DNA of 64,000 nucleotides from Acidobacteriota bacterium (lineage in GTDB: Bacteria; Acidobacteriota; Thermoanaerobaculia; UBA5066): the NCBI GenBank assembly GCA_029781975.1, contig JAKOVQ010000005.1:62001-126000 (forward strand), read 5' to 3'. The translations under genes and the position numbers were made by a program. Of the stretch, positions 24,736 to 28,292 are shown piece after piece (within the stretch, counting starts at the first letter, position 1; each line of letters begins with the position of its first letter). The notes below the pieces were generated by a model. It saw only the letters and a list, made by a program, of their open reading frames with translations, made no database searches and was not told the DNA's origin.

Positions 24736-25740
24736 GTGGACGCCTCCCCAATGCCGTGCGCCGGCGGGGCCCGCGACCTTCCCGACAGGCTGCGGGCCCA
24801 CCTCGACGCCACGCGCCTCCTCGAGGGAGCGGCGCGCGTCGTCGTCGCCTGCTCCGGCGGCGGCGACTCGGTGGCGCTCCTCCACCTCCTCCACGCCGTC
24901 GCGGGCGCCCGGACGGTCCTCGTCGCGGCCCACGTCTCCCACCAGCTCCGGGGCGGGGAGGGGGACGCCGACGCCCGCTTCGCCGCCGACGCCGCCGGGG
25001 CGCTCGGCCTCCCCTTCGTCCTCAGGTCGGTCGCGGTCCGCGACCTGAGGCGTCCGTCCGAGAGCCTCGAGGCCGCATCCCGCCGGGTCCGGTACGCCTC
25101 GCTCCTCGCCCTCTCCCGCGACCTCGGCCCCGGGACCCTCGTGGCCACGGGGCACACCCTGGACGACCAGGCCGAGACGGTGCTCCTGAGCCTCGAGCGC
25201 CACCTCGGGAGGAGCCGGGGAGGGATCCGGGCCCGCCGCGGCGACGGCGTCGTCCGGCCCCTCCTCCCGTTCCGGAGGGCCGAGCTGCGGACGTTCCTTG
25301 AGGCCCGGGGCGAGGGCTGGCGCGAGGACTCCTCCAACCTCGACGAGAGGTTCGCCCGCAACCGCGTCCGCCGGAGGGTCCTCCCCGCGCTCGAGGAGCT
25401 CTGGCCGGGGACGACCTCACGCCTCGCGCGGGCCGCCGAGGCCTGGAGCCTTCGCCTCGATCGCCTCGACGAGAGGATCGGCGCGGCGCTCGGGGCGGCG
25501 GGCGCCGGTGAGGGCGGACCCTGGCCGCGCTCGCTGTTCCGGACGGTCGGCGAGGAGGCGGCGGCGCGAATCCTCCTGCGCGCCTCGGGAGCGCTCGGCC
25601 GGAGCCCCGGTCGCGTCCAGCTCTCGCGTGCGGTGGCCCGGATCCTCGGGCCCGAGGAGCGGTTCCGCGAGGGGATCGCGGGCGGGCGCGTCGAGGCGGA
25701 TCGGCGGGTCGTCCGCCTCCTTCCCCCCGGGACGTCCTGA
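24736..25740 (+). CDS. tilS: tRNA(Ile)-lysidine synthase TilS
   Basis: TilS adds lysine to C34 of tRNA-Ile(CAU), changing both charging and codon reading. The 334-residue product has the N-type ATPase P-loop [12 protein letters not shown] near residue 38, the [14 protein letters not shown] region, and [13 protein letters not shown], all typical. The C-terminal domains are short compared with E. coli TilS. The start is either GTG at 24736 or ATG at 24751. I chose the GTG because a TACCAT -10 box lies six bases before it, as in other leaderless-looking genes here. tilS-hpt-ftsH is a conserved order. Confidence 0.92.
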
Positions 25741-25746
25741 TACACT
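25741..25746 (+). promoter_or_regulatory. -10 element for leaderless hpt-like gene
   Basis: TACACT begins immediately after the tilS stop and ends six bases before the ATG at 25753. No ribosome site is present. Confidence 0.5.
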
Positions 25747-25752
25747 GCTGCC

Positions 25753-26316
25753 ATGAGCCTCGTGTACGACGAGCGGTTCGGCCCGGGCGAGATCGCGAGC
25801 CGGGTCCAGGCGGTCGGCAGCAAGATCGCAGCCGACTTCCCGTCGGGCACCATCGTCCTGATCGCGATCCTCAAGGGGGCCGCCCTCCTGACCGCGGACC
25901 TCGCCCGCGCGATCCCGCGACCCGTCCGGCTGGAGTACATCGACGTGATCCGCGGGGGCGAGGAGGAGATCGTCGACTTCCACTTCGTCACCCCGTTCAA
26001 CGTCCGCGGCGCGGACATCATCATCGTCAAGGACGTCATCCGGAGCGGCATCATCGAAAGCTACCTCGCGGACCAGCTCCGCGAGGAGGGGCCGAGCTCC
26101 GTCCGCTTCGCGGCCATCGTGGACCGGCCGCAGGAGCGCAAGAGCTCCCTCCTGGTCGACTACGTCCTCTTCCCGTCCGAGGAGGGGGTCCTGGTCGGAT
26201 ACGGGATGGAGTACCAGGGCGAGGGAGGGAACCTCGCCTTCATCGGCAAGGTCCGGACGGCCGGCGAGGCGCCCTTCGAGCAGCGGACGGGACCCCTGAA
26301 GGTCCCGCGGGACTGA
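25753..26316 (+). CDS. hpt: Hypoxanthine phosphoribosyltransferase-like protein with altered active-site residues
   Basis: The 187-residue length and fold landmarks fit HPRT: the pyrophosphate loop [12 protein letters not shown] at about 39-50 and a GYGMEY segment near 167. However, the PRPP loop reads [13 protein letters not shown] (89-101) where active enzymes have VEDIIDTG/SG. The conserved Glu is Lys93 and the catalytic-base Asp is Arg97. The usual Lys in the LLDKP-type strand is Arg (VDRPQERK), GYG-x-DY is GYGMEY, and RNL is GNL. Purine salvage is therefore uncertain, and a regulatory or changed-substrate role is possible. Its place between tilS and ftsH is the classical hpt position, with an apparently leaderless start. 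Confidence 0.8.
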
Positions 26317-26360
26317 ACCGAGGGGCCCGCCCGGACGTAACGGACCTCGAAGGGCTTACC

Positions 26361-28292
<1,932 letters not shown>

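Follow-up and report, generated by a model that had tools for sequence, protein, structure and literature searches.

The window, by which we mean the whole 64,000-nucleotide stretch of DNA that was analysed, carries a reading frame that we term hptX between the genes for tRNA(Ile) lysidine synthetase (tilS) and the membrane protease FtsH. The order tilS-hpt-ftsH is widespread. An initial annotation had described hptX as an HPRT with altered catalytic residues, an intact frame and the classical gene position, and both the frame and the position between tilS and ftsH were recovered here (Table 1).

Table 1. Features of the tilS-hptX-ftsH locus in the window
Feature	Position	Strand	Remarks and basis
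tilS, tRNA(Ile) lysidine synthetase	24751..25740	+	Start codon chosen by the analyst; stop 12 bases 5' of hptX
Extended -10-like element, TGATACACT	25738..25746	+	Just 5' of the hptX ATG; sequence comparison
hptX, probable HPRT-fold pseudoenzyme	25753..26316	+	187 aa, frame intact; ORF, profile scores, alignment, structure, class residue table
Loop III (PRPP loop) segment of hptX, residues 91-105	26023..26067	+	Lys93, Asp94, Arg97, new Glu102; coordinates counted from sequence
TGAACC-N16-CGTA, possible ECF-type promoter of ftsH	26314..26339	+	Overlaps the hptX stop codon; pattern and conservation
ftsH, AAA+ membrane protease	26361..28292	+	Begins 44 bases after the hptX stop

HptX and the canonical HPRT of the genome

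The AF2 prediction of HptX (pLDDT 89.6, pTM 0.83) superposed on the solved HPRT structure 3o7m_A over 166 residues, with a Z of 25.8 and an rmsd of 1.6 Å. By this model and its superposition HptX has an HPRT fold, in line with the earlier remark that the fold landmarks are kept. The protein scored 43.6 bits against Pfam Pribosyltran, above the cut-off of 26.3, and 92.9 bits against the NCBIfam HGPRTase equivalog (TIGR01203), below the curated cut-off of 150. Position alone should not earn genes at the tilS-hpt-ftsH locus the label of HPRT.

The initial annotation had also raised the question of a second, canonical hpt. The window genome indeed encodes an ordinary HPRT (184.6 bits) on another contig (L001), and this copy carries FEDVVDTG, GYGLD and YRNL. 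Neither tilS nor ftsH was found on the L001 stretch around it; it is adjoined, at approximately 1097-1500, by a reading frame that we take by resemblance to be RidA-like. An HPRT above the cut-off was present in 58 of the 60 genomes searched, the window genome included, and a second copy of 74-119 bits recurred in the same search. Two genomes with hptX from the class of Acidobacteriota studied here, G009 and G015, had no HPRT above the cut-off; neither had G064, and these three genomes may lack HPRT salvage or be incomplete.

Forty-four such second copies were retrieved with their flanks and, with those of the window and L010, gave 46 copies for comparison with 47 unlinked HPRTs. A profile (A1) built from 42 of the 46 detected hptX in 93 of 148 genomes of the class, with no hptX at the threshold used in the remaining 55, and this search yielded 47 further copies that were retrieved and read by residue. 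The class residue table holds 94 rows. These count as 93 genomes, since L010 and L233 agree in length and are apparently one contig. Omitted from the residue tables were L005-L009, which look like repeats of G-coded genomes, and L011 and L012, whose analysed stretches show neither tilS nor ftsH. L085, which reads N over part of its length, was excluded from A1 and the trees and counted where letters exist. Codes such as f1 and g17 are analysis labels and not taxon names, and the scan of genome contigs covered close relatives. L012 is a record labelled Deltaproteobacteria; when 148 genomes from its phylum were searched with A1 and judged by bit score, no match exceeded 161.3 bits.

Active-site residues

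The PRPP loop of HptX reads VKDVIRSG. Lys93, Arg97, Arg125 (in VDRP), Glu153 (in GYGMEY) and Gly159 (in GGNL) fall in the columns that hold the canonical E, D, K, D and R of the 47 unlinked HPRTs from related genomes, which confirms at the level of alignment columns each substitution listed in the initial annotation. The possibility that canonical residues had merely moved to shifted positions was rejected on this alignment and on the superposition of the HptX model on 3o7m_A over the length given above. That annotation had not mentioned that the Tyr of loop II is gone, that Glu102 is newly fixed, or that Asp94 and the loop I Lys (LKG) are retained. Here D193, R199 and K165 follow human-HPRT numbering, and residues are discussed under the roles we take them to have.

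The initial annotation had asked whether related genomes share the substitutions. They are common to the 93 class genomes that carry hptX, and are thus far beyond chance. All 47 unlinked HPRTs are canonical at the loop III Glu and Asp, the base Asp, the loop II Tyr, the loop I Lys, the purine Lys, D193 and R199. In HptX, position 93 is Lys in 93 of 94 class rows and Arg in the other, so that the acidic Glu-Asp pair opening the PRPP loop is absent and Lys93-Asp94 stands in its place; Asp94 is found in every row (94/94). The catalytic-base Asp is kept in a single row of 94 and is elsewhere replaced by His (38), Ser (18), Arg (12, as in the window), Ala (11), Thr (9), Asn (2), Val (2) or Gly (1). 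The Tyr of the loop II Ser-Tyr pair is retained in none of the 94 rows, that of the window among them, and the R199 equivalent likewise in none (Gly in the window), while the D193 equivalent persists in 2 (Glu in the window) and the purine Lys in 22 (Arg in the window); the last three positions drift to many residues. Seventy rows retain the loop I Lys; the other 24 have lost it, and it is missing from whole families (GGS, SGS and others).

Other positions have become fixed. Glu102, where the unlinked HPRTs have Leu, Met or Ile, occurs in 94 of 94 class rows, and Arg52, Lys93, Glu102, Tyr104, Leu105 and Arg129 are among the residues fixed to at least 97% in class HptX but not in unlinked copies. 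Over 187 rows, Lys at position 93 was paired with Glu102 in 93 and never with another residue, and Arg with Glu102 in 1. This covariation would be consistent with a contact between Lys93 and Glu102, although it represents few independent events because the rows are related. Read from the alignment, the changes in HptX are the replacement of one motif by another (basic 93, Asp94, Glu102) and not plain decay.

Gene order and putative promoter elements

The order tilS-hpt-ftsH on a single strand holds in the window and in the class genomes, with tilS or ftsH lying off the stretch or not found in a few, and hptX copies have tilS and/or ftsH adjoining. On the first-retrieved stretches ftsH was present in 46 of 46 and tilS in 44 of 46; on the later ones the counts were 46 and 42 of 47, the stretches without a visible tilS or ftsH being cut or too diverged to tell. 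Of the 44 first-retrieved stretches that include tilS, 31 have an hptX start within the end of that gene, and 18 of these are 4-base ATGA overlaps; overlaps other than ATGA are less sure, since start codons were picked by script. In two g3 genomes (L078, L083) about 1.5 kb separates tilS from hptX, so the link between the two genes is not absolute. Seven genomes that lack hptX (G018, G024, G027, G039, G048, G051 and G057) have tilS directly followed by ftsH with no HPRT match between, and neither TilS nor ftsH therefore needs HptX there. In G008, where hptX was not found, the place upstream of ftsH is taken by another reading frame (L112); its HEFGHHFAG stretch is presumably that of a metallopeptidase. 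TilS is short in the window and its same-family relatives (approximately 294-335 aa with the chosen starts, vs. approximately 424-510 aa in most other class members).

At the -10-like site, TGCTAGACT is found in 10 of 12 same-family copies and a variant in the other two, one of them that of the window; the element is retained even where another gene separates tilS and hptX. Such an element would suggest a leaderless hptX-ftsH transcript. Further downstream, TGAACC-N16/17-CGTA is kept in 8 of the 12 copies. The pattern occurs once in the window vs. 0.01 expected, and four times in the genome vs. none for the reversed pattern; we take it to resemble an ECF-sigma promoter. The hptX-ftsH intergenic region differs in length among the 12 sequences, and inspection of these by eye for a shared RNA element revealed the promoter-like pattern alone.

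Phylogeny, second copies and selection

In unrooted FastTree phylogenies (supports are FastTree local values), 67 linked copies of the phylum split from 72 unlinked ones with a support of 0.94. The separation persisted (0.79) in a tree of 113 linked and 72 unlinked copies from which 63 columns around the active-site loops had been dropped, and in that tree the class hptX set formed a clade (0.98). Survival of the linked clade after this removal led us to reject the idea that it is an artefact of lost active sites.

Outside the class, the state of the linked copy matches the presence of a second HPRT, counted as any other HPRT above 100 bits in the same genome. Twenty-two genomes were read by residue (G089, G080, G104 and G124, of 26, are uncounted). 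Where the linked copy is the sole HPRT, Glu-Asp-Asp is intact in 14 of 16 genomes (G144, G184, G219, G246, G061, G113, G070, G065, G134, G101, G240, G198, G176 and G084), the exceptions being G092, with Ser for Glu, and G064, with VGTVIDTG. Where a second HPRT is present, Glu-Asp-Asp is intact in none of six (G121, G128, G160, G299, G408 and G409; Fisher p 0.0004, uncorrected for kinship). Three of the six (G121, G160 and G408) show the mild change of Glu to Asp and pass under a looser rule of any acid, Asp, Asp. In loop I, LKG survives in 15 of 16 sole-copy vs. 0 of 6 two-copy genomes.

Among the ten nearest same-family pairs, dN/dS of hptX was 0.017-0.234, similar to that of the unlinked gene (0.08-0.29); values up to 0.42 came from pairs with higher dS, for which the estimates are rougher. 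Selection on hptX is purifying. Decay of hptX as a pseudogene was considered and rejected on these values, which lie far below 1.

Discussion

In the current study, we describe an HPRT paralogue at the tilS-hpt-ftsH locus that very probably lacks normal HPRT activity, judging from its residues. The loss of catalytic residues, the selection acting on the gene and the ordinary copy elsewhere in the genome together indicate that HptX has probably kept only a second, non-enzymatic job. The initial annotation had proposed loss or change of activity without random decay, perhaps toward a sensor of PRPP or nucleotides. Loss of activity without decay is strongly favoured by the class-wide fixed substitutions, the purifying selection and the canonical HPRT, and the proposed sensor finds no such backing, the contact residues being missing.

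A plausible course of events is that purine salvage passed to a second, unlinked HPRT and the linked copy was so freed from catalysis, after which HptX would have lost its PRPP, pyrophosphate and purine contacts while retaining the fold. Within the class, it would then have fixed a new loop III signature of basic 93, Asp94 and Glu102. The retained job would most likely be a regulatory or scaffold role at the protein level within the tilS-hptX-ftsH unit. That HptX is a catalytically dead paralogue kept for such a role is, taken as a whole, a proposition to which we give an even chance. As a candidate mechanism, HptX might form a complex with co-translated TilS and set ftsH expression, as is reported for TilS-HprT in B. 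subtilis; gene order, the overlap with tilS and the activator reported in that species point tentatively to a role toward TilS or ftsH, one that we regard as somewhat short of probable. Weighing against such a role are the 55 of 148 class genomes without hptX and the seven in which tilS runs directly into ftsH. The correspondence between a second copy and loss of the motif likewise has its counter-examples, namely G064 and G092, which are sole-copy without Glu-Asp-Asp, and G009 and G015.

An alternative is that HptX is an enzyme with another substrate or chemistry; it might be a phosphoribosyltransferase that has been remodelled, or might hydrolyse a phosphorylated nucleotide. In favour of this, HptX keeps Asp94 and the [ST]G phosphate turn, and in most rows the loop I Lys; the fixed Arg52, Lys93, Glu102, Tyr104 and Arg129 have the appearance of a new site; and other phosphoribosyltransferases do without the catalytic-base Asp. 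However, the first acid of loop III, the PRPP residue most generally shared across the superfamily, has given way to a basic residue in all copies, about a quarter of the rows have lost the loop I Lys (24/94), and the equivalents of the purine Lys, D193 and R199 drift in a manner unlike a working HPRT site. We consider an enzyme of this kind unlikely.

Slightly less likely still is a ligand sensor in which the former active-site pocket would bind PRPP, ppGpp, GMP or a related phosphate, with ftsH or TilS receiving the signal. HPRT is a known target of ppGpp, and backbone amides contribute to the binding of 5'-phosphates by its loop III (PMC6783271); the fold, Asp94 and the phosphate turn are all kept in HptX. 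The side-chain contacts to ppGpp are given in the same source as Glu99, Asp100, Arg165 and Lys131 (PMC6783271). By alignment, Asp100 alone is kept in all HptX copies. Glu99, which makes contact with the ribose and the 5'-phosphates, has been replaced by Lys or Arg throughout, no copy has Arg at the Arg165 position, and Lys131 is conserved in 22 of 94 rows; the loop I Lys, moreover, is gone from whole families. A sensor of PRPP or ppGpp is thus unsupported by the residues because the needed contacts are missing, and HptX may bind some other phosphorylated ligand. Drift of most catalytic residues and absence of the gene from several lineages would suit a decaying pseudogene, but the frames are open in nearly all copies across many families, new residues are fixed and dN/dS is low, which makes this reading very improbable. 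An ordinary HPRT with tolerated substitutions is equally improbable: the fold and the classical gene position would fit, but several catalytic residues are lost together in every class member, the family score falls well under its cut-off, and a canonical copy exists elsewhere.

A bolder version of a non-enzymatic role is that a moonlighting enzyme was split, the linked HPRT shedding catalysis wherever a spare took over and becoming a dedicated TilS-partner regulator of ftsH with a fixed Lys-Asp-Glu site; we think this possible, though doubtful. If the split is true, HprT has at this locus an old non-enzymatic role that does not depend on purine salvage and can be tested separately. A linked copy that is without catalytic residues, is under selection and shares its genome with a spare enzyme is a natural separation-of-function variant, and would allow a clean test of the second role. 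To our knowledge, the claim of a second job for HprT at this locus rests on work in B. subtilis, and our literature search recognised no report of a non-catalytic HPRT at the tilS-hpt-ftsH locus.

According to a review that cites Lin et al. (2014), the B. subtilis TilS-HprT complex activates ftsH by acting at its promoter, and the two inverted-repeat binding sites there share no consensus (PMC8152036). An operon of S. mutans with tilS and hpt likewise ends in ftsH (PMC8112672). B. subtilis HprT resembles HptX in its fold, in the order tilS-hprT-ftsH and in genes that overlap or nearly so. The TilS-HprT activation of ftsH reported for it (PMC8152036) is the candidate point of likeness in function. 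It differs in being an active enzyme. In comparison, HptX is without equivalents of the loop II Tyr, the first PRPP acid, the base Asp, the purine Lys, D193 and R199, and is accompanied by a separate canonical HPRT elsewhere in its genome. The linked HPRTs of other Acidobacteriota classes (L155-L157, L159, L161, L162 and others) have the locus and the clade in common with HptX, and loop II is already altered in most of them. Unlike HptX, those of most sole-copy genomes retain an intact loop III (e.g., VEDILDTG), the purine Lys, GYGLD and the Arg of RNL. Vertebrate PRTFDC1 (PDB 2jbh) is an HPRT paralogue that exists beside the canonical enzyme, with an altered catalytic base and most other active-site residues kept; HptX is likewise a paralogue beside a canonical HPRT, but has lost nearly all active-site residues and has Lys93-Asp94-Glu102 fixed. 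In Bacillus PurR, a phosphoribosyltransferase fold with the PRPP motif kept has been turned to regulation together with a DNA-binding domain, whereas HptX is a single HPRT domain in which the PRPP motif is broken.
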